15,810 nt of DNA from Chloroflexota bacterium (GTDB taxonomy: Bacteria; Chloroflexota; Anaerolineae; Promineifilales; Promineifilaceae), in contig JAAEOP010000357.1 of NCBI GenBank assembly GCA_024223125.1, positions 1-15,810 on the forward strand, given 5' to 3'. The notes under the pieces are model-generated. The model was not told the origin of the DNA. It searched no databases and worked only from the letters and a program-made list of their open reading frames with translations. The position numbers were made by a program, and so were the translations under genes. Below, in pieces: positions 197 to 15,810 of this stretch. Numbering within the stretch: position 1 is the first letter of the stretch; every line of letters starts with the position of its first letter.

Positions 197-868
197 TCAC
201 GTCAAAAATTGCAGCAGTTCTCTAGTACTTTGTAAAATCAAGTGCGCTCCAGCGTTTTCCAATTCTTCTCGTTCGCCAAAACCGCAAAGGACGCCGGCCG
301 CCCACGCGCCTGCGTTCCGTCCGGCCAATACGTCCACTGTTGTATCCCCCACCATCAGGCAATTTTGTACGGGCACGCCAATCTGTTCGGCCGCCAGCAG
401 CAGCGGCGCTGGGTTGGGTTTCATATGGCGCGTATCTTGCAGCCCGCATGACACAGTAAACGCCTGCGCCAGTTCTGGAAATTTTTCAAAGAAGGCATCA
501 ATATGGTAACGGCCGCGGATGGTAATGAGGGCGAGGGAGTAACGGCCGTCCAACGCCCCAATCATCTCTTCCACTCCCGAAATCAACTGCCATTCATGCG
601 CCGCATACACCCCGCGCCGCCTTCGTAGCCAATCTGTAAAGCCCATCAAGGGCACATCCAGATGCAGCCAATCCAGCAACCGCACCAGCAGCGTCCCCGG
701 CCGTTCCGAACGCATCAACAACCATCGGGCTGTTTTGGGAGCGCGTTGACCGAAAAACGGCCGCAGCCAACGCTCCCACTGCGCCACAATCTGATCATCC
801 GTATCCACCAACGTCCCATCCAGATCAAAAAAGATAGCTTGCAGGTTTGGAAACAGGGAGTTATTCAC
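197..868 (-). CDS. HAD-superfamily hydrolase (phosphoglycolate phosphatase-like)
   Basis: This 223-residue protein is a HAD-type phosphohydrolase, probably a small cytoplasmic phosphatase; the substrate cannot be told. Motif I FFDLDGTLVD is at residues 13-22, with D15 as nucleophile and D17 as acid/base. Motif II is the threonine T116 in LALITIRG, motif III is K150 in HMKPNP, and motif IV is VGDTTVDV with D175 and D179. The cap is inserted between motifs I and II, as in subfamily IA, and the length is normal. The predicted start is GTG at 868, overlapping the TAG stop of the upstream endonuclease gene by one base, so translational coupling is possible. It contains the genome-typical CGGCCG-rich octamers that the upstream restriction genes lack. 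It may therefore be a native gene that the cassette landed next to. Confidence 0.85.
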   Translation of the reverse strand: MNNSLFPNLQAIFFDLDGTLVDTDDQIVAQWERWLRPFFGQRAPKTARWLLMRSERPGTLLVRLLDWLHLDVPLMGFTDWLRRRRGVYAAHEWQLISGVEEMIGALDGRYSLALITIRGRYHIDAFFEKFPELAQAFTVSCGLQDTRHMKPNPAPLLLAAEQIGVPVQNCLMVGDTTVDVLAGRNAGAWAAGVLCGFGEREELENAGAHLILQSTRELLQFLT

Positions 869-1806
869 TATAGCAACCAGCCCCTTTCTAATCCTTGCTC
901 AATGGTACTTTCCCAATCTGTTATCAGATGAGTGCGTACTGTTTGATATAGATGCCAGACAACTTCTGGATCAATTAGATTCTTTTCATAATCTGGCGCA
1001 AAACGAAACTCTCTGTCTGTATTTTTCTGCTTTCGAAAAACGTAAATCTGATCCACTTCATACTTCCGCAAATTGACAGCGCTGGTTAATTTGAGCCATT
1101 CCATGGCCACCATATAAAGAGCATTTGGATTTCTGGCTTTCAATTGTTCGGCCGCTCTTGACGACCCTTCAAGCATCGTTTTATCGAGATAAGTTTTACA
1201 CTCTATGGCGACTGCTGCGACATCAAATAGATGATTCTCTAAATCATCTTCAATATGAACAGTATAGCGTATGGGAGGCTCTCCAAGTTGGGACTCCTGG
1301 CTCGCTTGCTCCTTCTTCGGCTGATGTAATTTCAAAGATGCTTCAAGTGTAACCCCTATAACAAAGTCATGATCCTTCCTCTCAATCCTAGCATAAGCTC
1401 GTTCAGTCATGGCCCGGAAATTAGGTGGAACAAAGAAAACATCCTTAAAAGCATGGGATCTCCCCAGAAGTGCATTACTTCCAAAATTGGAAACCAAATC
1501 TCTGAAAAGATAATAGAGAAACTCCTCAATTACCGTCGAATGTAAATTTGAACGGGAATCAAAATTTTCTGCATATTTCTGTTGATCTATAAAACTTTTA
1601 TAGTTCTCTAACAACGCGACTCTTTGATGTACAACTTCATTATCAGAAGGTTTTAGATTTGAATATGGACCTTCGAGATTCTTATTGGCAAGATGCCATT
1701 GATCATATTTTACACGTATTTCAGCAAGGAATTTACGACTCTGGGAGTCAAGATACTTAGTGCGATGGTTCTCTTTCTGGCTTATGTTCGATCCGTGAAC
1801 GAGCAT
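868..1806 (-). CDS. Type II restriction endonuclease, PD-(D/E)XK, possibly Bpu10I-like
   Basis: This 312-residue protein lies directly downstream of a C5-cytosine methyltransferase on the same strand and overlaps its 3' end by 50 bases, the usual layout of a type II restriction-modification cassette. A plausible PD-(D/E)XK core is visible: an acidic pair in RKDHDFVIG (D145/D147), then IECK (E202, K204) at the end of a hydrophobic strand. An acidic helix, TVIEEFLYYLF (residues 91-101), could supply a further residue. The stretch ECKTYLDKTMLEG reminds me of the Bpu10I-type endonuclease family. That is recall, not a search result, so specificity is not assigned. ATG at 1806 has a good Shine-Dalgarno, AAGAGG, about nine bases upstream. 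The gene is visibly AT-rich and has no ACGGCCGT octamer, consistent with horizontal acquisition. Confidence 0.72.
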   Translation of the reverse strand: MLVHGSNISQKENHRTKYLDSQSRKFLAEIRVKYDQWHLANKNLEGPYSNLKPSDNEVVHQRVALLENYKSFIDQQKYAENFDSRSNLHSTVIEEFLYYLFRDLVSNFGSNALLGRSHAFKDVFFVPPNFRAMTERAYARIERKDHDFVIGVTLEASLKLHQPKKEQASQESQLGEPPIRYTVHIEDDLENHLFDVAAVAIECKTYLDKTMLEGSSRAAEQLKARNPNALYMVAMEWLKLTSAVNLRKYEVDQIYVFRKQKNTDREFRFAPDYEKNLIDPEVVWHLYQTVRTHLITDWESTIEQGLERGWLL

Positions 1807-3022
1807 TCGTTAATACCTCTTGAATATGGCTGGCAATCGCCTTTGCCAGTAATGGGGGAACAGCATTCCCAATTTGATTATATTGGCAAAGGTGCTTGTC
1901 ATGTAACCGTCCCTCACGTTGTAATAGCTTGTGGGAGGGTGTCGTTTTCTTACCCATAAAGCGATATGAGTCGGGGAATGATTGGATTCGTGCGCCCTCA
2001 CGAGCAGTTATATTGCGATGTTGAAAAGGATGTATGAAATTCGCATAAAATGATGCCGCAATTGTATGCGAGGGCTTGTACGGGTATAAACGACGGTTAT
2101 TTTGATCATACGCCTTTTTTGAGATCTTCCCATTTCCATTTCGTTGTCTTGGCAAATGTTCTTGAGGTACATCAGCGGACGATTCACCCCAACTTATATG
2201 CTCAAATCGTTCGACCAGACGTTTAGAATGATTCATGGCCACATGGTTATAAACTGTTTTCCGCTCTCCCCTAGCCCATTTCTGATACGTTGTTTGCGGA
2301 TTGGCATTGTATTGTTGTTCTTCTTCCCCATCTCCAGCATTCAATTCAGGTAAGTCTGAGATAGCATCCCATAACGTTAATGCCTTTGGTAAAGATGGGG
2401 CATTAAAAAGGGTTAGTTGGTTGTTATCAGAAATCACCTGTCCTGTGGCATATGTTTTTGGTGGTTCTCCTATCCTTTCTAAACCAACACGATTACCAAC
2501 GACAAAAACCCTTTTTCGATTTTGGGGGACGCCATAATCTGCGGCATTAAGCAACCAAACCTCAACAGTGTAACCTAAATTTGCAAAGGTTTGTTTAATA
2601 ATGTTAATGACCGGTTCACGATTTACATTTCTCCGTGAGAGCAGCCCCTTAACATTTTCCATTACAAACAGTTGAGGCCTTAAAAAATCAACCCAACGGG
2701 CAAAATCCTTAAATAAACTATTTCGAGGGTCTTGGGGATCTTTTTGTGCGGGACCGGCAACACTAAATCCTTGACAAGGGGGGCCGCCAATGATGATGTC
2801 GGGCGAAATAGGACAGACGGTTCGCACTTGTTCTAATGTTTGATATTTTCTGATGTCATCCTGGATAACAAGTTGATCTGGATTGTTTTCACGTAATGTA
2901 TCAGCTGCCCATTGATCTATTTCCAGTGAACAGACAACATTATAGTCTGCAAGTTCAAAACCAAGTCCAAATCCTCCTGCTCCCGCAAATAAGTCAACAA
3001 CTTTCATTTTATTTGGCAACAT
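1757..3022 (-). CDS. DNA (cytosine-5-)-methyltransferase, type II R-M
   Basis: This enzyme transfers a methyl group from S-adenosylmethionine to C5 of cytosine and is presumably the protective half of the cassette with the endonuclease downstream. Motifs appear in canonical order, numbered from the start used here: motif I VVDLFAGAGGFGLG (8-21), motif IV GGPPCQGFS with catalytic Cys about 83, motif VI ENVKG (122-126), motif VIII QNRKRVFVVG (167-176), then a target-recognition region. Motifs IX and X follow as REGARIQSFPDSY and QIGNAVPP near the C-terminus. Length, about 421 residues, is normal. An in-frame ATG also exists at 3052, but the ATG at 3022 has GAGG eight bases upstream while 3052 has no clear ribosome site. 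The last 50 bases overlap the endonuclease gene in another frame. Recognition sequence unknown. Confidence 0.93.
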   Translation of the reverse strand: MLPNKMKVVDLFAGAGGFGLGFELADYNVVCSLEIDQWAADTLRENNPDQLVIQDDIRKYQTLEQVRTVCPISPDIIIGGPPCQGFSVAGPAQKDPQDPRNSLFKDFARWVDFLRPQLFVMENVKGLLSRRNVNREPVINIIKQTFANLGYTVEVWLLNAADYGVPQNRKRVFVVGNRVGLERIGEPPKTYATGQVISDNNQLTLFNAPSLPKALTLWDAISDLPELNAGDGEEEQQYNANPQTTYQKWARGERKTVYNHVAMNHSKRLVERFEHISWGESSADVPQEHLPRQRNGNGKISKKAYDQNNRRLYPYKPSHTIAASFYANFIHPFQHRNITAREGARIQSFPDSYRFMGKKTTPSHKLLQREGRLHDKHLCQYNQIGNAVPPLLAKAIASHIQEVLTNARSRIEHKPEREPSH

Positions 3023-3030
3023 ATCAGTTT

Positions 3031-3034
3031 CCTC
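3031..3034 (-). promoter_or_regulatory. Ribosome binding site deciding the methyltransferase start
   Basis: On the minus strand GAGG lies eight bases before the ATG at 3022. The upstream in-frame ATG at 3052 lacks a comparable purine stretch. This favours the shorter methyltransferase. Confidence 0.5.
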
Positions 3035-3100
3035 AATATCAGAATGTGACATTATCAGAACTTACATTCTACACGATTGAGCAATCAATTGCATACACAT

Positions 3101-6100
3101 TTAATATTCCCGCTCCTGTCCCAAAACCATGAGCGCCATAGAGAGGGCACGGCCGGCCGTTTGTAGTTTATCGGCCGCAATGTTGTCAGGCGTATCCTCG
3201 GCCGTGCGAGCTGTTTCTTCCCACCCTTCCCAAAATAGGCGCACTACCGGGGCTGTCTGGGTTGATTGGCCACCAGGGGCCACATCCTCATATATTTGGC
3301 TGATATCTATGGTTTCATTGCTACGTAATGATTTGCCGCCAGTTTGGGACACGGCCGTTTCAAACAAATCTGCCAGCCGCAAACTGCCCGAAGCAGCCAC
3401 CTCCACCCGGTCGCCGAAACCATCCCCCAGGCCGCGCAGCTGCACAATCGCTACCGGTTCATACGCTGTAGCAAAACCAATTTTGGCCTGTAAAAAGCGA
3501 GTGATATTGGGGTTGTTCACCGGCTCGCCGCCATCCAACCCTTCGCCACTGTATGCCACAAATAAGAAAGAGCGGTTCGGTTGGAAATCAGCCTCTTGCA
3601 GCACACGGATCGCTTCCAACATCACTGCGACGCCGCTGGCATTATTGTTGGCCGCTAGGAAAGGCGTGGCGCCGGGAGGCAGTGGGGGACTATCATACTG
3701 GGCCATCACCACCACTAGTTCTGCATCCAGACAATCAGGGCAGCGTTCATATCCCGCTTTGCCCGGCAGCAAGCCAATAACATGCTGCACCGGCCAGCTT
3801 TTTTCAATTTCGCCACTAACCTTCAGGCTTGCCTGAGTAGACAAAGGGGTTTGCAATAGCCCTTCCAACGGCAGCAAATCAATCTGGTCGCGTATCCCGT
3901 CTACCGTCAAACCATTTGCCGCCAGTATGTTATCGGCGACCTCTTCGGTAATCCACATGGATGGGGTCTCTTCGCCGCGTGGTTGGCCAGAAAAGGATAA
4001 CGACTGACCCGACCGACCTGAATAGGTGAAATTACGGTGCAGCAAATCGGGATTATCCGTTACTACCAACAACCCATCCATATCCTTACGAGTGACAATA
4101 CTTGCCTCTCTATCCGAAAAAACCATCACCACCTGCCCCTCAAGTGACGTCCGGTCTAATTCTGGATAGGAGGTACGAAAGCCGGTCGCTCCCGATGCTT
4201 CACCCAGGCCGACAACGGTAATGGAGGCATTCGCTTCACCGTCGGTCATATTACGGCCGGGGTACGCGGCAAAATCTACACCCGGCGTCAGGGCAGTTCC
4301 GTCAATGGCTAATTCCGGTTCGGAAAGCAGACGCTCAAAAGCGTGTTTGCGATTTTGGAAGTAGGTGTTTGCTTGTCCACCCACTTGTAAACCCAATGCT
4401 TCAAACTGATCGGCAATGTATTGGGCGGCTATTGCTGGTTCTTCTGTACCCAGGGCACGGCCGTTCATCTGCGGCGCAGTCAAATCATCCACATAAGCTT
4501 GGGCATTGTCGCCGCTAAACAATTGGGCCTGTTGCCGCAAAAATGGCGTCGAGCCAGAATTGTTTTGCAACCAGCTAAACCCCAATGTAAACAGCAGTAA
4601 AACCGCAATCGTCCAACGGTTGATGAAGCGGCTAATAACCAGATTGCCTTCATCTACTGCCCGGCGCACCCCCTCACCAAACAGGTTAAAAGCGAAGATG
4701 GTGATGAAGAAAGCCATCATGGGGAAGAGGGCTGTCCAGGGATACGGCCGTGCCAGATAACGTACATTACTCAGCAGCGCCCCCCACTCTGGTACATCCG
4801 AATACAGCATCGGTCCCACGCCAGGCAGTTCAATAAATGCTCCACCGCCGATAAAGATGCTGAGGAAACCCAATTCACCCAACAACATTAACACGGCCGA
4901 AATTTCTAAAGCAGCAATGGAGATGAGCGACCCCAACAAAACAGGCATAATGTGCCGGTTAAAAATACGGCTGGTGCGTGCCCCAGAAGCAACAGCGCTT
5001 TCAATAAACTGCTGCGGTCGCACGGCCGTTACCTCTCCGCGCACAAACTGCATAATCTCCCCCCAGCCCACAAAACAAATAGCAATAACAAAGGAAGATA
5101 TCCCCTCCCGAATACCAAAAGCCAGCACCAGGATCATCGCCAGCAGCAGAGTGGGAAAAGCAGCAATTATTTCTGCCAAACCAGTGATGAAGCGATCCAG
5201 AGCACGGCCGTTATGCCAGCCAGCCAATGCGCCTAAAATGACGCCGACAACCAGACGCGCCCCCACTGCCAGCGTCACCAATGTCAACGTCTGCTGCGCC
5301 CCGGAAAAAATCAAACTTTGTATATCCCGTCCCAGCGAATCAGTGCCCCAGGGGTAGGTATCGTCGGGAGAAAAAGGAGGTACCGTAAGCTGGCCATCAA
5401 CCATTTCCAGACCGCGTGTACTGTACGGGTTATGGGGGGCAAATTGTGGCCCAAACAACACAACCACGATCATGCCGATTACCAGCAGACTACCAATAGT
5501 AAAAGCGGCGTTGGTACGCACGGCCGTCCAGATGGAACGTTTTCCCTGGTAGGGAAACTCCAATTCAACCGTTCCCTCTTGCAGCCTGTCCAACGAGGTT
5601 TGGAAGGGACTGGGTTCCGGCGGTGTTTGACGGCGTGTCCACCAGCGGGTGAGGGCAGTATCTGTCACCGCATCATGGGCTGTCTCACGCCACGATCGCA
5701 CCCGCTGGCGCCAGGTAAAATGGCTGCCCGCGCCCAAAAAAGAGGGGTCTTCCCACAAACGAGGGTCAATGAGACGGTAGCTGAGTTCCAGCAAAATATT
5801 GACTATGACAATCAGCAAACCAAATGTCAAAGTCAGAGCGACAGTTAAATTTTCATCTTGCTGGGCAATCGCTTTTAACAAAGTGGCCCCTGCGCCCGGC
5901 CAGCCAAAATACAGCTCCACTACCGGCAAACTGCTCATGGCAAAATGGAAGGAGATGCCAATGGTGGTCAGAATGGGAATAGCGGCATTGCGTAATACGT
6001 GGCTGTAGGTGACATTAAACGGCCGTAACCCCTTACTATGCGCTGTGCGTACATAATCTTGCCGCAGTACATTCCGCAAGGTAACAAATGAGATGCGGGT

Positions 6101-6727
6101 AATTTGGGCCAACGGCCGTGCAGCCAACACAATCAGCGGCAAAATCAGGTGGGCGTCCCAGCCAAAACCACCCACCGGCAGCAATGAGCGACCAGAAAAG
6201 CGCGTGTAGGTTGTTACTGCCCATTGCAGTAAAAAGGCGGCAAAAAAGCTGGGCACAGAAATACCAATCAAAGTAGTGAGAATAATGCCTAACGAGCGGC
6301 GATTATTGCTGCGGGCCGCCCGTATTCCCAAAATGACACCCAGCAGGGAAGCTACAAACAGGGAAGCTGCCAACAAACCCAGACTGCGGCTCATGCGTTC
6401 GCGCAATACCTGGGTCACTGGCAGCGGGTTTACATTGCTGCTGCCGGCTGTACTCAACCCCATGTCGCCTTGTAGCAAACGGCCAAAGTAGGTGATTGTA
6501 TCTTGAGCGGCAGCAGGCACGGCTAACCTCAAACCGGCGCCATCAATCATCCCCAAACCTAAATAAGTCAGAAAAACAATACCGATCAAAACAAGCAGCG
6601 CAAAAGCAAGCCGTTTACCTAAAAAGTTTAAGATTGCTAAAATGGTGTCGCGGATATGGTGGTCAGACACGGCCGTGTCCGATGGCGGCGTCTGGTTTTG
6701 GGTAGGAGAAAGCTGTATTTCACTCAT
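3101..6727 (-). CDS. Fused DppB-DppC ABC permeases with C-terminal inactive M28 peptidase-like domain
   Basis: This 1208-residue single frame joins normally separate genes. Residues about 35-325 are a DppB-type permease with its EAA loop in QDYVRTAHSKGLRPFNVTYS (223-242). A cytoplasmic linker (about 325-400) leads to a DppC-type permease (about 400-690) with TDSLGRD (462-468) and EAA loop SAVASGARTSRIF (577-589). A further hydrophobic helix (704-720) should carry the chain outside. Residues about 740-1205 then resemble peptidase M28 with a PA-like insert (about 835-945). The usual zinc ligands are all changed: His to Q1010 (AQYDS), Asp to N1028 (NNNASG), second Glu of EE to G1063 (GEGLDG), Asp to R1098, His to R1174 (ARTAEDTPD). 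Only E1062 remains. Catalysis is therefore unlikely; substrate capture is possible. No ATPase or binding protein lies nearby. Start ATG 6727; the ribosome site (AGGA) is distant. Confidence 0.88.
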   Translation of the reverse strand: MSEIQLSPTQNQTPPSDTAVSDHHIRDTILAILNFLGKRLAFALLVLIGIVFLTYLGLGMIDGAGLRLAVPAAAQDTITYFGRLLQGDMGLSTAGSSNVNPLPVTQVLRERMSRSLGLLAASLFVASLLGVILGIRAARSNNRRSLGIILTTLIGISVPSFFAAFLLQWAVTTYTRFSGRSLLPVGGFGWDAHLILPLIVLAARPLAQITRISFVTLRNVLRQDYVRTAHSKGLRPFNVTYSHVLRNAAIPILTTIGISFHFAMSSLPVVELYFGWPGAGATLLKAIAQQDENLTVALTLTFGLLIVIVNILLELSYRLIDPRLWEDPSFLGAGSHFTWRQRVRSWRETAHDAVTDTALTRWWTRRQTPPEPSPFQTSLDRLQEGTVELEFPYQGKRSIWTAVRTNAAFTIGSLLVIGMIVVVLFGPQFAPHNPYSTRGLEMVDGQLTVPPFSPDDTYPWGTDSLGRDIQSLIFSGAQQTLTLVTLAVGARLVVGVILGALAGWHNGRALDRFITGLAEIIAAFPTLLLAMILVLAFGIREGISSFVIAICFVGWGEIMQFVRGEVTAVRPQQFIESAVASGARTSRIFNRHIMPVLLGSLISIAALEISAVLMLLGELGFLSIFIGGGAFIELPGVGPMLYSDVPEWGALLSNVRYLARPYPWTALFPMMAFFITIFAFNLFGEGVRRAVDEGNLVISRFINRWTIAVLLLFTLGFSWLQNNSGSTPFLRQQAQLFSGDNAQAYVDDLTAPQMNGRALGTEEPAIAAQYIADQFEALGLQVGGQANTYFQNRKHAFERLLSEPELAIDGTALTPGVDFAAYPGRNMTDGEANASITVVGLGEASGATGFRTSYPELDRTSLEGQVVMVFSDREASIVTRKDMDGLLVVTDNPDLLHRNFTYSGRSGQSLSFSGQPRGEETPSMWITEEVADNILAANGLTVDGIRDQIDLLPLEGLLQTPLSTQASLKVSGEIEKSWPVQHVIGLLPGKAGYERCPDCLDAELVVVMAQYDSPPLPPGATPFLAANNNASGVAVMLEAIRVLQEADFQPNRSFLFVAYSGEGLDGGEPVNNPNITRFLQAKIGFATAYEPVAIVQLRGLGDGFGDRVEVAASGSLRLADLFETAVSQTGGKSLRSNETIDISQIYEDVAPGGQSTQTAPVVRLFWEGWEETARTAEDTPDNIAADKLQTAGRALSMALMVLGQEREY

Positions 6728-8569: not shown

Positions 8570-8707
8570 TTCGAGTATTTTTTAATGCTTGCGCTTCGCG
8601 GATTACAGAGTACTATCCTGTCGCGCCATCGTCAAATAATGGCTCAGGCGCGATCTGTGCCGGCGATTGGCGACATTCAGCAACCCACATTTTTGAGAGG
8701 ATCGTTC

Positions 8708-9420
8708 ATGACAACAAAACAATTTGTACTTGTGGCCGGTAATATTGGTGCTGGCAAAACTTCACTCACAGAACGTATTGGCGAACGGCTGGGCTGGTAT
8801 ACCGCTATGAATCCGTCAGCGACAACCCCTATCTGGCCGATTTTTATGAGGATATGAGCCAGTGGGCTTTCCATCTGCAAGTCTTCTTTATCGGACATCG
8901 GGCGGAGCAATACTTGGAGCTGTATCAATCGCCCCAATCAACCATCTCTGACCGCAGCATTTATGAAGATGCTCACATCTTTGCCCGCGCCCTGCACCAT
9001 ATGGGCGCTTTCACTGAGCGAGATCATGCCGCTTACCGGCGTACCTTCAACCTGGTCGTTAACAGCCTGCCCAAACCGGATTTGCTCCTTTATCTCAAAT
9101 GTCCTGTGCCCGTGTTGATGAAGCGTATTCGGCAGCGCGGCCGTGAAATGGAAAATAACATTACGGCCGAATACCTATCTCTATTAGAATCGTTTTACAA
9201 CGAATGGCTGCACAACTTTGACCTGTGCCCAATGTTGGTTATTCCCAGTGAAAACCTGGATTTTTGTATTGGTCAAGGGTTAGTTGAAACCTTGAATCCC
9301 GCGCCGGAATCGAGGCTTCAACCGGTCGTGAACAGGCGGGAACCGGCTGAAGCCTCGATTCCGGTCAAAAAGAGGAATTTCAAGCAATCTCTGACCAATA
9401 CAGAAAAAAGGTTGTTTTAG
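8708..9420 (+). pseudogene. Deoxynucleoside kinase (dCK/dGK family), frameshifted
   Basis: The product would be a cytoplasmic kinase that phosphorylates deoxynucleosides in nucleotide salvage. The ATG at 8708 follows GAGAGG and starts MTTKQFVLVAGNIGAGKTSL, a P-loop. After GWYT the correct reading shifts by one base: from TAT at 8806 it continues YESVSDNPYLADFYEDMSQW, then DRSIYEDAHIFARA and LYLKCPVPVLMKRIRQRGRE, all typical of the family. One missing base after 8805 (a GCN codon) explains everything. The reading frame is otherwise clean, so recent inactivation or an assembly error is more likely than old decay. The C-terminus runs about 50 residues past the usual end (after NLDF) through an inverted repeat at 9304-9364. 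The true stop may therefore have been displaced by that insertion. Confidence 0.85.
9304..9364. repeat. 61-bp inverted-repeat element inside the kinase C-terminal tail
   Basis: The arms CCGGAATCGAGGCTTCA (9304-9320) and TGAAGCCTCGATTCCGG (9348-9364) are perfectly complementary over 17 bases. They continue as ACCGGT / ACCGGC for a 23-bp stem with one mismatch around a 15-nt loop. It is read in frame by the kinase gene as an atypical Arg/Pro-rich tail. With such a strong stem it could stop transcription, but no T-run follows directly, so a dispersed palindromic insertion is equally plausible. Confidence 0.8.
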
Positions 9421-9439: not shown

Positions 9440-9468
9440 CAGTGGACTCATATCAAGTTGAAAACAAC

Positions 9469-9474
9469 AAGGAG
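9469..9474 (+). promoter_or_regulatory. Shine-Dalgarno deciding the GTG start of MBL hydrolase 1
   Basis: AAGGAG lies seven bases before GTG at 9482. The paralogue at 11947 has the identical AAGGAGAAAAA context before its ATG, which supports the GTG rather than the upstream in-frame TTG at 9458. Confidence 0.7.
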
Positions 9475-9481
9475 AAAAATT

Positions 9482-10747
9482 GTGTCTGATACACTCAAAA
9501 ATCCATATGGTGGCGGCCCAGGAACTGGTATTAGCTTACCCGATTATTTCCGGCCCACCCCCTCAGTAAAAATACGTAACAACTACTTTCCAGGATCAGA
9601 AACGCTTGGCCCAGATGAAATGCGAATCTCATACGTGGGTAGTTGTCCATTCCCGCCTCGTCGCAGTCAGGCAGGGACGGCCATTATGGTCGAATTGGGT
9701 AACGGCGACCGTTTCTTCTTTGACTTTGGCCCTGGCTGTATGCGTAATATCATCTCATTGGGCATACCCGTGCAAGAAATAAATGATATTTTCATCTCCC
9801 ATTTACACGTAGACCATTATCATGATTTGTCTTACTTACGGCCGTTTCGGGCTTGGGCTGGTGGCTACACACCATTGCGCGTTCATGGTCCATCGGGACG
9901 CACCCCAGAATTAGGCACGCAAGGCATGATAAATGGCATGGATCAGATGCTCAAATGGCACACAGAAGCGTTTGATGTCTTCCCCATCGGCGAAGGATAC
10001 GAATGTGAAGTTAACGAATTTGACTGGAAAGACGAGAACGGTATTTGCTATGAAAAGAATGGCGTTACCGTACGTCACTGGCGTCGTTCACACGCCAAAG
10101 ATGGTGCCACTGGCTACCGTTTAGATTGGAATGGCTTGAGTTTTGTTTGGACAGGAGACGGCCGTCCCGATGAACTATCCGTTAAATATGGTGCCGGCGC
10201 AGACGTGTTTGTCACCGAATGCCAAACTGATACAGCTCGTTTGATGGCGTTGAAATACGGCTTCCCTGAGTGGCTCACCAATTACACTATTGACACTCAT
10301 CACACCGTCCACTATGCCGTCGGCCACATGATGAAAGAGGTCAATCCACGCATCGGCATGGTGACTCATATTGATTACGATGAAGCCACCATCACCGAAG
10401 CCGTTGCTGGCATCCGCGCGCATTGGGAGGGGTTGTTTGCTTTTGGCGCACCAGACGGCATTATTGTTAATGTCACCAAAGATGAAATCTGGGTGCGCGA
10501 AGCGGCACTACCTGAATCGACAGGGATGGCTGCCCCCGATTTGCGTAAGCTATTTCAAGCTGATGAAAATGGTCTTGCTGTCTTGCCTCAACCACGCCGC
10601 ACACGTGCAGAACAACAAGAGCAACTGACCCGTGATCTTGAAATTGACCCCGCAAAATATTATCCACTAGATGTGGCCCGTGATCTATTGACAGAACTTC
10701 CAAATCCATTGGAAGTTCAATTTCCTCCTAAAAAGAAGGAAGATTAA
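9482..10747 (+). CDS. RNase Z-like metallo-beta-lactamase-fold hydrolase, paralogue 1
   Basis: This 421-residue MBL-fold enzyme should bind two Zn ions. The signature SHLHVDH sits at residues 106-112. Further likely ligands are the His of RSHAKDG (about 204), the Asp of WTGDGRP (226), the HH of DTHH (about 273) and the His of MVTHID (about 296). The order and the SH...GYRLDW stretch resemble the tRNase Z branch rather than beta-lactamases. There is no signal peptide, so it is probably cytoplasmic. It resembles proteins that I recall being named after GntH of guanitoxin clusters, but nothing else of that pathway is visible, so I do not transfer the function. It shares long conserved blocks with the paralogue at 11947, including AFDVFPIGEGYE, CYEKNGVT and RLDWNGLS. 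A terminator-like hairpin follows, then the CobW GTPase. Confidence 0.87.
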   Translation: MSDTLKNPYGGGPGTGISLPDYFRPTPSVKIRNNYFPGSETLGPDEMRISYVGSCPFPPRRSQAGTAIMVELGNGDRFFFDFGPGCMRNIISLGIPVQEINDIFISHLHVDHYHDLSYLRPFRAWAGGYTPLRVHGPSGRTPELGTQGMINGMDQMLKWHTEAFDVFPIGEGYECEVNEFDWKDENGICYEKNGVTVRHWRRSHAKDGATGYRLDWNGLSFVWTGDGRPDELSVKYGAGADVFVTECQTDTARLMALKYGFPEWLTNYTIDTHHTVHYAVGHMMKEVNPRIGMVTHIDYDEATITEAVAGIRAHWEGLFAFGAPDGIIVNVTKDEIWVREAALPESTGMAAPDLRKLFQADENGLAVLPQPRRTRAEQQEQLTRDLEIDPAKYYPLDVARDLLTELPNPLEVQFPPKKKED

Positions 10748-10766
10748 CTAAATAATTCTAATTTAC

Positions 10767-10802
10767 GTGCGACGCTCTATAAAAGTGCGTCACACTTTTT
10801 TT
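10767..10802 (+). terminator. Rho-independent terminator after MBL hydrolase 1
   Basis: The arms GTGCGACGC (10767-10775) and GCGTCACAC (10787-10795) pair with one mismatch around an 11-nt loop. Seven T residues (10796-10802) follow. It lies between the MBL gene and the CobW gene, so the GTPase may be expressed partly by read-through or from its own promoter. Confidence 0.65.
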
Positions 10803-10818
10803 ATTTTTGGAGCTAACT

Positions 10819-11823
10819 ATGGAAATTATTGAAAACGGAGAAACGGCCGTTCCCGTTACCATCCTTGCTGGATTTTTAGGCGCAGGCAAAACCACATTAC
10901 TCAACCGCATCCTCAATGGAGATCATGGTCTACGTATCGCCGTCCTCGTCAACGACTTTGGAGCCATAAATATTGATGCCGAACTCATCGTCGGCGTCGA
11001 AGACAACGCCATCAGCCTAGCAAATGGCTGTGTCTGTTGTGAAATTCGGGATGATTTGGTGGAAACAATTGAAGAAGTGGTTAGTCGGCCTGAAAACCCA
11101 GAATACATCTTGCTCGAAGCCAGCGGTGTTGCTGACCCCGCAGGTATAGCCATGACCTTTGTCCAACCTCAATTCCGCGACCGCATTCGCCTAGACAGCA
11201 TCATCTCCATTGTCGATGCCGAGCAAGTATTTGCCTATCCCGAATATCCCCAACTTCAGGAATTAAAAATGCGTCAGATTGCTTTCTCCGACATGGTCAT
11301 CCTCAATAAGGTTGACCTGGTAGACGAGGCGCAATTACAAAAAGTAAAAGATTGGATTGGTAAACGACTGACACGGGTACGCATTGTCGAGGCCGTGCAA
11401 TGTGACATACCCTTAGAAATTTTGCTCGGTGTGGGGCGTTTTGATGTCCAACAATTGGCCGAAATTCCAGACAGTCATCCCCACGATCACGAGACTAATC
11501 ATGGACAAGTTTTTAGCACGTGGAGTTATCAGTCAGATAAACCCTTTTCGCTCGAAGCACTACAAGAAATGATCAGGCGAAAACTACCCGAAAACATCTA
11601 TCGCTGTAAAGGTGTTATCTATGCGCTAGATGCCCCCGATAATCGGGCAATCTTGCAAGTCGTCGGTCGCCGTTCTGATGTTGCCTTGGGGGAAGAATGG
11701 GGAAACGTGCAGTCACGCACACAAATTGTAGCCATTGCCGCCGCAGGCAGCATTGACACAGAAGTTTTGACAGCTTTGTTTGAGGAGTGTGTCCACGAAA
11801 CCACAAACAAAGCTGCTCTATAA
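10819..11823 (+). CDS. COG0523/CobW-family G3E GTPase, putative metal chaperone
   Basis: This 334-residue protein is a G3E-class P-loop GTPase of the CobW/YjiA/ZNG1 group, cytoplasmic metal (often zinc) chaperones or insertases. Visible motifs are Walker A GFLGAGKTTLL (18-28), the metal-binding GCVCCEIRDDL (CxCC at 71-74), LLEASGVADP with the Walker B-type Glu (98-107), and NKVDL (163-167). A His-rich loop SHPHDHETNH (219-228) follows, then a CobW C-terminal domain ending LQVVGRR...VAIAAAGSID...LTALFEEC. ATG at 10819 is preceded by GGAG six bases away; an upstream TTG is unlikely. It sits between two zinc-dependent MBL paralogues, which suggests that it loads them with metal (inference). Its 3' end is repeated in two downstream gene fragments. 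Confidence 0.92.
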   Translation: MEIIENGETAVPVTILAGFLGAGKTTLLNRILNGDHGLRIAVLVNDFGAINIDAELIVGVEDNAISLANGCVCCEIRDDLVETIEEVVSRPENPEYILLEASGVADPAGIAMTFVQPQFRDRIRLDSIISIVDAEQVFAYPEYPQLQELKMRQIAFSDMVILNKVDLVDEAQLQKVKDWIGKRLTRVRIVEAVQCDIPLEILLGVGRFDVQQLAEIPDSHPHDHETNHGQVFSTWSYQSDKPFSLEALQEMIRRKLPENIYRCKGVIYALDAPDNRAILQVVGRRSDVALGEEWGNVQSRTQIVAIAAAGSIDTEVLTALFEECVHETTNKAAL

Positions 11824-11864
11824 AAGTATTTTGGGCTGGTCACTGTTTTGCCCACTTAATGATC

Positions 11865-11890
11865 ATCATTTCCGCCTATGCAGGGATGAT
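11865..11890. repeat. Degenerate REP-like hairpin
   Basis: ATCATTTCCGCCTATGCAGGGATGAT style dyad (outer arms ATCAT/ATGAT, inner CC.../...GG), sitting between cobW and the second MBL gene. Its TCATT-CC-GC...GC-GG-ATGA pattern resembles a mutated half of the element at 43-108. Similarity is partial. Confidence 0.35.
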
Positions 11891-11946
11891 ATTTACCGAA
11901 AGGATGATTGTTCTCAATCATTCCACTGTTTTAACAAGGAGAAAAA

Positions 11947-13308
11947 ATGACAGAAAAGAAAATAGTAACCGATCCAGAAGAATTGCAAAAAGTTTTATCT
12001 GGCGGTGTCCCTATGGGACGCTGGCAAGAAGGGTTAATGTTTGAGGGTATTGAACCGATGCCCTGGTTGAAGAGTGCCGCCAACTGGTTCCCAAACACTG
12101 AAGAAATTCAACCAGATGAGATGCGGATCACCTTTATGGGGTCTTCGCCGACCCTCCGCCCAGGTCAGATGAATACCTCGATTTTTGTTGAACTGGGCAA
12201 TGGCGATTCATTCATCTTTGACATTGGTGAAGGGGCTATATCGAACTACAGCGCCTGCCGTTTGTCTTTGAATGAGTTGAATAATATCTTCATCACCCAT
12301 TTACATGTGGATCATTTTGGCTCATTGCCCTATCTGTACATGTTTGGAGCCTGGGCTGGCCGCTGGCATGAGCCGTTGCGGGTAACTGGGCCATCTGGAC
12401 GTACAGAAAAAGATGGCGTAGCCTACATGGTCGATGGCATGAAGCGTATGTTACATTGGCATCGTGATGCTTTTGATGTCTTCCCCATTGGTGAAGGGTA
12501 CGAAGTGGACGTGCATGAGTTTGATTTCATGGATGACGGCGGCGTATGTTACGAGAAAAACGGCGTCACGATTACCCACTGGCGGCAATCCCATGCTAAA
12601 GATGGCGCTTCGGCTTACCGTCTCGATTGGAATGGCTTGAGTATGTCGTTCACTGGCGACGGCCGTCCCAATTCTCTAACCGAAAAATATGCGGAAGGTG
12701 TGGATGTATTGATCACTGAATTGATGGCAGAAGTTATTTCGATTTCTTCGGGTGTACAGGGCGTACCTCCTTTCCTCGGTCGCTATACAGTCGATACACA
12801 TCATAATCCCGGATATGCGGCTGGATATCTGTACGATAAAGTAAAACCGCGTTTAGCTATGGCGACGCATGTCTTTAACGATGAGTACGCCAACCCTGAA
12901 ACGCTGGCTGAAGTGCGCGAAAATTGGAAGGGACCTTTCCACTTTGGTTTTGATTTGGTTGTTGTTAATGTCACCAAGGACAAACTTTGGATACGCGAGG
13001 GTGTCGTATCAGATCACCCCAACCTCAAACCGCCTCAGTTTGACCTGTCTGCAGGCTTTTTGCATGTCCCCCTGCCGCGTAATCAGCGCGTAGACATTCA
13101 AGAGCCAACTATTAGAGAGGCCGAGATTGCACCGGAAAAATATTATCCCGAAGCTAATTACCCCGTCCTCCTTGAAGAGTGGCCTGTTGATGGCGATATT
13201 CAAGCCGATTTGGACATGTTCCCCGATGATTTCACAAACAGTATCGGTGAAAATTACCAACGTAAACAAAGATTGAAAAAAGCGCACGAAGAAAAAGAGA
13301 ACAAATAA
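11947..13308 (+). CDS. RNase Z-like metallo-beta-lactamase-fold hydrolase, paralogue 2
   Basis: This 453-residue paralogue of the protein at 9482 is collinear along its length. The metal-binding signature THLHVDH is at residues 117-123, the third-motif His is in QSHAKDG (about 216), the Asp is in FTGDGRP (238), DTHH is at 283-286, and the final His is in MATHVF (308). It differs by an N-terminal extension (MTEKKIVTDPEEL...), an insertion after LITEL (about residues 260-277), and a charged, Lys/Glu-rich C-terminus. DTHHNPGYAAGYL replaces the partner's DTHHTVHYAVGHM, so a nearby His is lost. ATG has AAGGAG six bases upstream. Two diverged paralogues in one cluster could form a heterodimer or use different substrates (inference). 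No signal peptide. Confidence 0.88.
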   Translation: MTEKKIVTDPEELQKVLSGGVPMGRWQEGLMFEGIEPMPWLKSAANWFPNTEEIQPDEMRITFMGSSPTLRPGQMNTSIFVELGNGDSFIFDIGEGAISNYSACRLSLNELNNIFITHLHVDHFGSLPYLYMFGAWAGRWHEPLRVTGPSGRTEKDGVAYMVDGMKRMLHWHRDAFDVFPIGEGYEVDVHEFDFMDDGGVCYEKNGVTITHWRQSHAKDGASAYRLDWNGLSMSFTGDGRPNSLTEKYAEGVDVLITELMAEVISISSGVQGVPPFLGRYTVDTHHNPGYAAGYLYDKVKPRLAMATHVFNDEYANPETLAEVRENWKGPFHFGFDLVVVNVTKDKLWIREGVVSDHPNLKPPQFDLSAGFLHVPLPRNQRVDIQEPTIREAEIAPEKYYPEANYPVLLEEWPVDGDIQADLDMFPDDFTNSIGENYQRKQRLKKAHEEKENK

Positions 13309-14063: not shown

Positions 14064-14223
14064 GAATAGGGTGAGCGCGAACCACAGATGCAAATTGTGG
14101 CAATCGGTGCGCCAGGACAGCATGGATGAGGCTGAGTTGACAGCTTTGTTTGAGGGATGTGTGGCAGAATTGGAAACGACCGTTTTCGACAACGACCATT
14201 CCCCATCCATTGGCTCATTCTAG
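14064..14223 (+). pseudogene. 3'-end remnant B of a third CobW-family gene, with nonsense and frameshift
   Basis: From 14064 the sequence reads E-stop-GEREPQMQIVAIGAPG. After a one-base shift near 14118 it reads SMDEAELTALFEGCVAELET, ending at TAG 14221-14223. This is the CobW C-terminal end once more. The first 20 bases match remnant A (13481-13500) with one difference, which turns the TGG Trp codon into TAG. TTGACAGCTTTGTTTGAGG (14137-14155) is identical to 11767-11785 of the intact cobW. Only about 50 codons survive. The stop TAG overlaps the Shine-Dalgarno of the following sulfatase. Confidence 0.8.
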
Positions 14224-14234
14224 GAGATAAACTC

Positions 14235-15810
14235 ATGAAACAACAAACAAGTGACCGCATGTCCCATAAACCCAATATCTTAATTATTGTGACCGATCAA
14301 GAGTACGCTCATCAATCATTGCCATCAGGGCTCACATTACCTAACAGACAACGCTTGCATGATCGGGGAACAACATTTAACAATCACCAAGTCACCACCA
14401 CCGTCTGCACCCCGTCCCGCTCAGTGATGTGGACGGGGCAGCACACGCCCTTCACTCGCATGACCGACAATACCAACTTGGCTTGGATCGAAGATATTCG
14501 CGCCGATCCAGAGAGCTTGCCGACCATCGGCCACATGCTGCGCGACTTGGGCTACTACACAGCCTATAAAGGCAAATAGCATGAATCAGAGTTCGCAGAA
14601 GGGGACAGCCGCGATGCCATGGAGCCTTTCGGTTTCTCCGATTTTCAGGAGTGGGGCGATGCGTATGGCACACCTTTTGACGGTCTTAACAAAGACCCGA
14701 TGACAGCAGCCGATGCACAATCTTGGCTAAAAAACCGCACTCCAGAAATCGCTCAAATCCAACCGTGGTTTCTAGCCGTAAACTTTATCAACCCTCACGA
14801 CATCATGTATTTCGATACTGACGATGATGAGATGGTGCAAGTGCGAGGCATGATGCCTATCTTTAGCGCGCCAGATACACCGCTTTACCAGCAGCAATGG
14901 CCGACCACACTGCCTGCATCCTTTTTTGACGATCTGACTGACCAGCCAACGGCCGTTCGCAATTACAAAACATTTAGCGATGGAACTTACGGCCGTATTC
15001 CCATGAAACGCCGCGACATGTGGCACAACCACATCAACTACTATCTCAACTGTTTACTTGATGTAGACCAACACATCGGCACCGTCTTGGACGCACTCGA
15101 AGAGAGCGGACAAGACGCAAACACAGTCATCATCTTCACCTCAGATCATAGCGAAATGGCTGGCGCACATCACTTGCGCCAAAAGGGCAGCGTGGCTTTC
15201 AAAGAGACGGTAAACGTGCCGCTAATCATCACCGATCCACGACGTAAAGATGGTGTCCGAACAGATATGGTCGGTTCCCATCTTGATTTAGTACCTACAA
15301 TGCTGGCTTACGCTGGCCTGCCAGAGAAAGAACAACGCGACCGCTATCCTTTCCTCAAAGGACATGACCTGTCTGGGGCGGTGATCGATCCAACCGCTGA
15401 CGGGGCGCGGGGCAGTGCAGGCAATCCGGGTAAAGGTGTACTCTATACCTATGACATGATCGCCACCGTTGATGCCGAGTGGTTGATGGGCAACGCATCC
15501 CTGTTGTTGGATTCGGCAGCAGCCGCAGCCGGCCTTGAGTTTCATCGCGGTACGGAAGCATTCATGGCTATGCTGGATCAGGTTGGTATGCCAGACATGG
15601 ATAAAAGAGAGTTGTTTTGAGGTGTTTTTGACGGCCGTTATAAACTGATTCGTTACTTCGGTATAGGCTATTACAACCTGCCAGGGTCGGTAGCAGAACT
15701 ACTGGCCGATAATGACGTAGCTCTTTACGACCTGTGGAATGATCAGGAAGAGATGGATAATCTGGCTAATCCAGATAATCCCAACTACGACGAAACCTTA
15801 TTGGCGACGA
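14235..15810 (+). pseudogene. Formylglycine-dependent sulfatase, two in-frame stops, runs off the window
   Basis: The original product would be a type I sulfatase (sulfate ester hydrolase). Visible are the N-terminal ILIIVTDQE (15-23), the formylglycine motif VCTPSRS with C58, YKGK before the first stop, then IIFTSDHSEMAGAHH and KGSVAFKETVNVPLII. A late FDGRYKLIRYF follows the second stop. The first stop, TAG at 14577-14579, replaces the Trp of the conserved GKWH motif (TGG to TAG). The second, TGA at 15618-15620, most likely replaces CGA (Arg). The frame is otherwise continuous across both stops to the window edge, so inactivation looks recent. ATG at 14235 has GGAG eight bases upstream. No signal peptide is apparent. 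Choline-sulfatase or arylsulfatase specificity cannot be told apart. Activity would need a formylglycine-generating enzyme elsewhere. Confidence 0.87.

Follow-up and report, generated by a model that had tools for sequence, protein, structure and literature searches.

A single-chain pair of Opp/Dpp-like permeases with a conserved, probably extracytoplasmic M28-like domain that lacks zinc ligands in Chloroflexota

Enzymes of peptidase family M28 bind two zinc ions through a His, Asp, Glu, Asp, His set of ligands, and M28 folds without peptidase function, such as nicastrin and TfR1, occur on membrane anchors. Among ATP-binding cassette (ABC) transporters, the binding domain of OpuA is attached by way of an 11-aa linker and a hydrophobic anchor in the membrane, according to the available part of its description (PMC11065425). 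Here we analyse a 15,810-nucleotide stretch of DNA from a Chloroflexota bacterium (contig JAAEOP010000357.1; hereafter the window), in which a single open reading frame (ORF; 3101..6727, minus strand) encodes a 1208-aa protein made up of a DppB-like transmembrane domain, a DppC-like transmembrane domain, an extra helix and an ectodomain in two parts, one PA-like and one M28-like. The M28-like part is without metal ligands, a loss that is conserved among relatives, and this dead enzyme domain probably serves a purpose other than cutting. We tentatively favour a role as a tethered, non-catalytic putative peptide receptor or gate, with a layout similar to that of the tethered binding domain of OpuA, and give this a little less than an even chance. 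The parts are of known kinds; their combination is new as far as the open-licence PMC literature was searched, in which we found no description of such a fusion.

Loss of the metal site across the family

An earlier note on this DNA had proposed that two permeases and an M28-like domain lie in one frame, and the ORF, profile matches and a structure model all bear this out. Structure comparison of the predicted model confirmed the M28 fold of the C-terminal domain, with matches over the entire ectodomain. Ligand columns were placed by a family-profile alignment to BSAP (6hc6) that spans all five positions; aligning the motifs with those of ligand-complete M28s gave the same placement. The five zinc-ligand positions hold Q1010, N1028, G1063, R1098 and R1174, the same residues that the earlier note had named. 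We counted residues in 108 relatives with a length of 1130 aa or more, among them the window copy. The first ligand (His) position (Q1010; 3698..3700, on the minus strand like every feature of the protein given below) is Q in 98, P in 9 and R in 1, and the position of the bridging Asp (N1028; 3644..3646) is D in 93, N in 13 and V in 2. At 3539..3544, E1062 at the catalytic-base position is kept and the ligand Glu position is lost to G1063, both in 108/108 relatives; in both BSAP and the Vibrio enzyme the aligned pair is EE. The ligand Asp position (R1098; 3434..3436) is R in 101/108 and the last ligand (His) position (R1174; 3206..3208) is R in 95/108, and D1012 and N1029 are invariant alongside E1062 (108/108). 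Loss throughout the subfamily concerns four ligands; the fifth, the bridging Asp, is lost only in a minority that includes the window copy. Mean entropy of the five ligand columns was 0.50 bits versus 1.29 ± 0.41 for random five-column M28 sets, with 1.9% of draws as low. The domain has the fold and the catalytic-base Glu of an active M28 enzyme and lacks its set of five zinc ligands. A regular-expression test of sequence order found no stretch of the chain with a complete, correctly ordered set of zinc motifs, and relocation of the ligands as such an ordered set was rejected on this result.

Three protein searches (best 120 of 338, 1497 and 163 matches) yielded 357 proteins, each entry being a 90% cluster and some of them fragments. 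Profiles built from the family of the first search, for the two permeases (B and C) and the M28 part (M), sorted them into 243 B-C-M, 3 B-C-M-M, 1 B-C-C-M, 1 B-C, 37 C-M (including some fragments of B-C-M), 55 M-only (including chains with other, unprofiled domains) and 17 M-M proteins. The search chosen beforehand as the one that could overturn the idea of a repurposed domain, for the same fusion with all ligands retained, left it standing: a motif-complete M28 was found in 0/248 double-permease fusions (247 with a recognised M28). Such motifs were present in 14/37 C-M proteins (P0122-P0132, P0147, P0170, P0174), 12/17 M-M proteins and 35/55 M-only proteins, so some misses of this regular-expression test are its own or reflect fragments. 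Single-permease DppC-M28 relatives with an apparently active, ligand-complete M28 thus exist. Two main ligand patterns recur among B-C-M proteins, in an alignment from which 3 M-M proteins were left out. The first, that of the window copy, is Q, D or N, G, R, R with the base Glu kept; in the second, the first His is usually replaced by Tyr and the Asp by Ser, the Glu pair is absent, and the last His is mostly kept. The columns of the 108 relatives and the absence of motif-complete fusions indicate that ligand loss is conserved, with fixed replacements, and is not the decay of one copy, in line with the repurposing that the earlier note had proposed.

The ratio of non-synonymous to synonymous substitution rates (dN/dS) was 0.09-0.20 for the ectodomain versus 0.08-0.23 for the permeases in 8 pairs of related fusion genes from four locus groups; some loci contribute to more than one pair, no pair is close to the window copy, and dS is near or above 1 in most of them. 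The two ranges are similar, so constraint on the ectodomain is comparable to that on the permeases in these related loci. Named relatives among the matches listed are almost all Chloroflexota, chiefly Anaerolineae such as Thermanaerothrix daxensis, and one (P0076) is labelled Zixibacteria. Matches at E<=1e-70, not all of full length, occurred in 75/396 genomes of the class of the T. daxensis genome, and a manual count found a match running from permease through ectodomain in 5/400 genomes of its phylum. The family is large, conserved and apparently undescribed.

Architecture and orientation of the window protein

The N-terminal tail of the window copy is short, unlike that of relatives with N-terminal add-ons. 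The DppB-like permease (residues ~34-325; 5753..6628) has six helices, which are present in the model, and a BPD_transp_1 match at 130-325; its EAA loop, the site of ATPase contact (residues 224-247; 5987..6058), carries the conserved pattern DY.RTA..KG...H..RN. The linker between the permeases (residues 326-397; 5537..5752) is variable, with a mean column entropy of 2.52 bits versus ~1.0 in the permeases, and is predicted to be cytoplasmic; the stretch 313-406 is net positive in 96/108 relatives. In the DppC-like permease (residues 398-692; 4652..5536) we found a second BPD_transp_1 stretch, an OppC_N match slightly under cut-off and an EAA loop (residues 574-595; 4943..5008) with the conserved pattern ESA.A.GA..RI..H..P. 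The NCBIfam models NikC and Opp4C cover this part nearly full length, ending at 691-692, with scores under their cut-offs. Hydropathy and the model place an extra transmembrane helix at residues ~696-714 (697-723 in the model; 4586..4642). The ectodomain beyond it is divided into a putative PA-like part (residues 735-995; 3743..4525) and the M28-like part (residues 996-1208; 3104..3742), the latter assigned from PF04389, structure and alignments. The former assignment draws on whole-ectodomain matches to 2ek8, BSAP and TfR1, structures which we take to have a PA domain; the PA family of Pfam gave no match in a Pfam scan of the window protein.

EAA patterns are kept in the first permease of 233/248 fusion proteins and in the second of 228/248 (sums over three groups). 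With these loops retained in >90% of the 248, a working ABC core is likely, and the pair of BPD_transp_1 permeases with EAA loops is that of an Opp/Dpp importer.

The earlier note had also placed the ectodomain outside the cell by way of the extra helix. The C-terminus of a DppC permease is cytoplasmic, and the whole DppC-like permease precedes the extra helix, because the near-complete NikC and Opp4C models end before it; the structure model adds one further helix after the DppC-like part. The loop before this helix is net positive in 103/108 relatives and the stretch after it in 18/108, and the EAA loops are net positive in 108/108 (first) and 106/108 (second). The extra helix therefore probably puts the C-terminal ectodomain outside, a placement that draws on the end of the permease models, the modelled helix and the loop charges of the family and is at odds with the hydropathy profile of the window copy.

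Neighbourhoods, genomes and history of the fusions

Eight fusion-bearing genomes were scanned, seven with a double-permease fusion and one (G193) with the single-permease form only. Matches to oligo_HPY (DppD/F-type) ATPases were present in 8/8 (2-13 each) and matches to SBP_bac_5 in 8/8 (7-23 each), some proteins giving two matches. A motor is thus available in trans and soluble receptors are kept, and the core is likely to be powered by DppD/F-type ATPases encoded elsewhere. The DppD/DppF ATPases for which the earlier note had suggested a search are present in these genomes of relatives. Replacement or loss of DppA was not borne out, and a domain standing in for DppA was rejected as a candidate, since all eight genomes keep peptide-binding proteins.

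We compared 25 double-permease neighbourhoods (L144-L163, L179-L183), some of them cut by contig ends, with flanks of up to 8.9 kb per side. A canonical Opp gene was present in three (L144, L158, L161) and a double-M28 gene in 0/25; binding-protein markers came from phmmer with one query, which misses distant ones such as an unlabelled second binding protein beside the fusion in G618. L156 has an ABC ATPase with two ABC_tran stretches and L149 has two fusions in tandem. An ATPase (by motif), a binding protein, dppB and dppC lie upstream of the fusion in L007, and L112 was unresolved in ORF picking.

A separate dppB lies directly upstream of dppC-M28, within 369 bases, in 15/15 single-permease loci (L164-L178), and overlaps it in L164, L173, L176 and L178. 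Ten of the 15 have a double-M28 gene at most 2.2 kb downstream on the same strand; read by eye, the first M28 of this gene is ligand-complete in those ten loci and the M28 of the permease itself is not. The dppB and double-M28 genes beside dppC-M28 tie the permease lineage to peptide processing. The double-M28 genes adjoining dppB/dppC-M28 pairs are giant (L164, L166, L168-L172, L174, L175, L177), and some also have MA-peptidase, PA or DUF418 parts. M28 domains are also fused to the membrane family DUF418 (L018:4437-7164, L019, L166:10954-17127), fusions that mark M28 as a mobile ectodomain in these genomes.

N-terminal additions vary. An ABC_tran-like domain precedes both permeases and the M28 part in the same chain in 42 relatives, nearly all of ~1440 aa (e.g. 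L179:8350-12678, L180:8669-12997, L181, L182; most of P0240-P0283). In 43 aligned rows (L179 and P0279 are apparently one protein), the Walker A Lys was found in 8 and the H-loop His in 0; no LSGGQ-type string is among the 20 commonest signatures, and the Walker B Glu position holds E in 33 rows and D in the other 10. EAA loops are present in 37/42 (first) and 42/42 (second) of these relatives, so that in most of them motor and peptidase both appear from their sequences to be degenerate and the EAA loops remain. The first-permease profile begins after residue 160 in 72/248 fusions. Other add-ons are TPR in P0073 and an ABC-2 membrane piece in L007. The N-termini of P0055, P0060, P0076, P0077 and P0048 have ~130-300 extra residues that read as receiver- and roadblock-like; a scan of P0055 and P0077 gave no Pfam match for this stretch.

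Trees were built for the permease and the ectodomain. In the permease tree, for which 20 ordinary DppC rows found by similarity served as the comparison set, a 100/100 branch parts all M28-bearing DppC rows from 17/20 ordinary ones; the other three (L087; identical L086/L115) lie on the fused side on long branches, where long-branch effects are possible. L087:524-3717 reads as a dppB ahead of a DppC-like permease that is joined to a PQQ/beta-propeller-like domain, a further type of ectodomain, and L115:4815-7984 comprises dppB and a DppC-like protein of 740 aa, the additional part of which matched nothing in Pfam. B-C-M proteins form one group in the permease tree (93/98), with two C-M entries inside, and one in the ectodomain tree (100/99), with the M-only P0228 inside; 13/14 degenerate C-M proteins form another ectodomain group (100/100), P0219 lying outside its set. 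Both of these ectodomain groups are apart from the ligand-complete ones, which occupy two sub-branches of the M28-bearing side of the permease tree. The ectodomain tree puts both degenerate sets on one side with weak support (91/41), possibly through long-branch attraction; in the permease tree the degenerate DppC-M28 set is instead placed with ligand-complete ones (89/80). Ligand-complete fusions of the P0147 type group with M28-only proteins in the ectodomain tree (100/100) and look like a separate acquisition. The existence of ligand-complete single-permease relatives makes an ancestor with a ligand-complete M28 plausible, and a likely path would be the joining of an active M28 to a DppC-like permease, followed by loss of catalysis and fusion with DppB.

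Elsewhere in the window, a C5 cytosine methyltransferase gene overlaps a Bpu10I-type restriction endonuclease gene (868-3052, minus strand), and a CobW GTPase gene lies between two similar metallo-beta-lactamase-fold proteins (9458-13308, plus strand), the second read by eye from the ORF list. Sulfatase-like (14157-15620) and deoxynucleoside-kinase-like (8585-9420) sequences on the plus strand each occupy two ORFs by eye and are perhaps broken or affected by sequencing errors.

Function of the ectodomain and comparison with known systems

We propose that the protein would be a complete Opp/Dpp-type membrane core in one chain, tethered by the added helix to an extracytoplasmic PA-M28 pseudopeptidase. 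DppD/DppF-type ATPases from elsewhere in the genome would power the core and the ectodomain would no longer cut. Its old cleft, with D1012, N1029 and E1062 kept and R1098, R1174 and Q1010 at former ligand sites, could hold or gate peptides at the permease mouth, and this built-in receptor would work beside, not instead of, soluble binding proteins.

Several observations weigh against this proposal. No DppD/DppF ATPase or SBP_bac_5 gene was seen among the 7 window ORFs scanned, and 22/25 double-permease loci are without a canonical Opp gene within their flanks. Taken alone, the window copy has 14 hydropathy windows, an even number that read literally would put the ectodomain inside; the count arises because residues 596-637 give two windows, a stretch that is a single long helix in the model and a single merged peak in the family mean. 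Loops 167-184 and 502-519 break the positive-inside rule, and in the window copy itself the loop before the extra helix is not positive (2 K/R versus 3 D/E at 685-695). The dN/dS pairs are all distant from the copy in the window, and the mostly dead N-terminal ATPase is explained no less well by a role outside transport in the branch that carries it.

Of the alternatives, docking and sensing are the serious contenders. The ectodomain may instead bind no peptide and serve as a docking platform that recruits a partner protein (soluble binding protein or active M28 peptidase), bringing cutting and import to one place. The double-M28 genes, with their ligand-complete first M28, next to 10/15 single-permease loci, the canonical Opp genes that adjoin a few double-permease loci (L007, L144, L158, L161), and the presence among the structural matches of TfR1, a protein-binding receptor of M28 fold that is not an enzyme, are consistent with docking. 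We nevertheless regard it as unlikely, as conservation of the former active-site columns above background would be needless for a role of the outer surface alone, and most double-permease neighbourhoods have neither a canonical Opp gene nor, in any of the 25, a double-M28 gene. Quite unlikely, in our estimation, is a sensor in place of an importer, in which permease fold, ectodomain and cytoplasmic module would form a transmembrane receptor signalling extracellular peptide. The varied N-terminal add-ons (TPR, the mostly dead ABC ATPase of 42 relatives, the ABC-2 piece, the receiver/roadblock-like stretches) and the 72/248 fusions whose first-permease profile starts late would suit such a protein, but the window copy has only its short tail and both EAA loops, needed for coupling to an ATPase, are kept in more than nine-tenths of the family. 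That the domain is still an enzyme, its cleft (E1062, D1012 and a pair of arginines) doing other chemistry or binding another metal would fit the invariance of E1062, D1012 and N1029; it is made improbable by the loss of four of five metal ligands in the subfamily of the window and by a second subfamily that loses a different ligand set and mostly keeps the last His, a difference which suggests no shared new chemistry. Decay of a pseudo-domain drifting after loss of function, to which the missing ligands and the extra loss at N1028 might point, is scarcely credible given fixed replacements, low dN/dS and full-length frames across the family, and for related loci is largely refuted by the ectodomain dN/dS.

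In a wider picture, which we hold to be doubtful, single-chain ABC proteins of Chloroflexota would recycle enzyme modules as dead parts (M28 outside; a mostly dead ATPase inside in 42) around an intact permease fold, making gates or receptors that respond to peptide and rely on functional ATPases and peptidases supplied in trans, and not a self-contained importer. Newly reported here are the ligand-complete single-permease relatives, the loci that pair a single-permease fusion with a double-M28 gene, and the 42 relatives whose chain begins with a mostly dead ABC ATPase domain. As relatives span ligand-complete to ligand-free forms, a change from peptidase to receptor is testable by domain swaps, and the fused ATPase of one branch raises the question of whether a permease core can act without a motor of its own.

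Like DppB and DppC of Opp/Dpp systems, the fusion has both BPD_transp_1 domains, an OppC_N-like start and EAA loops; unlike them, it is a single chain with an extra helix and an M28-like ectodomain, scores under all 25 NCBIfam cut-offs shown, and belongs to a family whose loci lie mostly away from dppA/D/F. With OpuA and GlnPQ it shares an extra domain joined covalently to the permease, here probably on the substrate side; the link in OpuA is the short linker and membrane anchor given in the part of the source available. The tethered domain here has an M28 fold along the full ectodomain in place of a periplasmic-binding-protein fold, both permeases are in one chain and binding is only putative; a dead exopeptidase would give ABC permeases a second fold for a domain on the substrate side. 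The M28 aminopeptidases with a PA domain (2ek8, BSAP/YwaD) resemble it in fold across the whole ectodomain and differ in having the zinc ligand set.

The proposal that nicastrin contacts substrate through a conserved Glu is contested. In the part of PMC2647162 available, this contact is proposed by analogy with aminopeptidase active sites, and we take the residue as equivalent to the invariant E1062, the two being equated without an alignment. The family profile matched TfR1 and nicalin, nicastrin not being in that list. With an M28 fold, a lost ligand set and conservation of that loss, the ectodomain is a pseudoenzyme of the nicastrin/TfR kind and bears on peptide handling by M28 pseudoenzymes such as nicastrin; unlike nicastrin and TfR1, neither of which is attached to an ABC permease, it is joined to one in a single chain.

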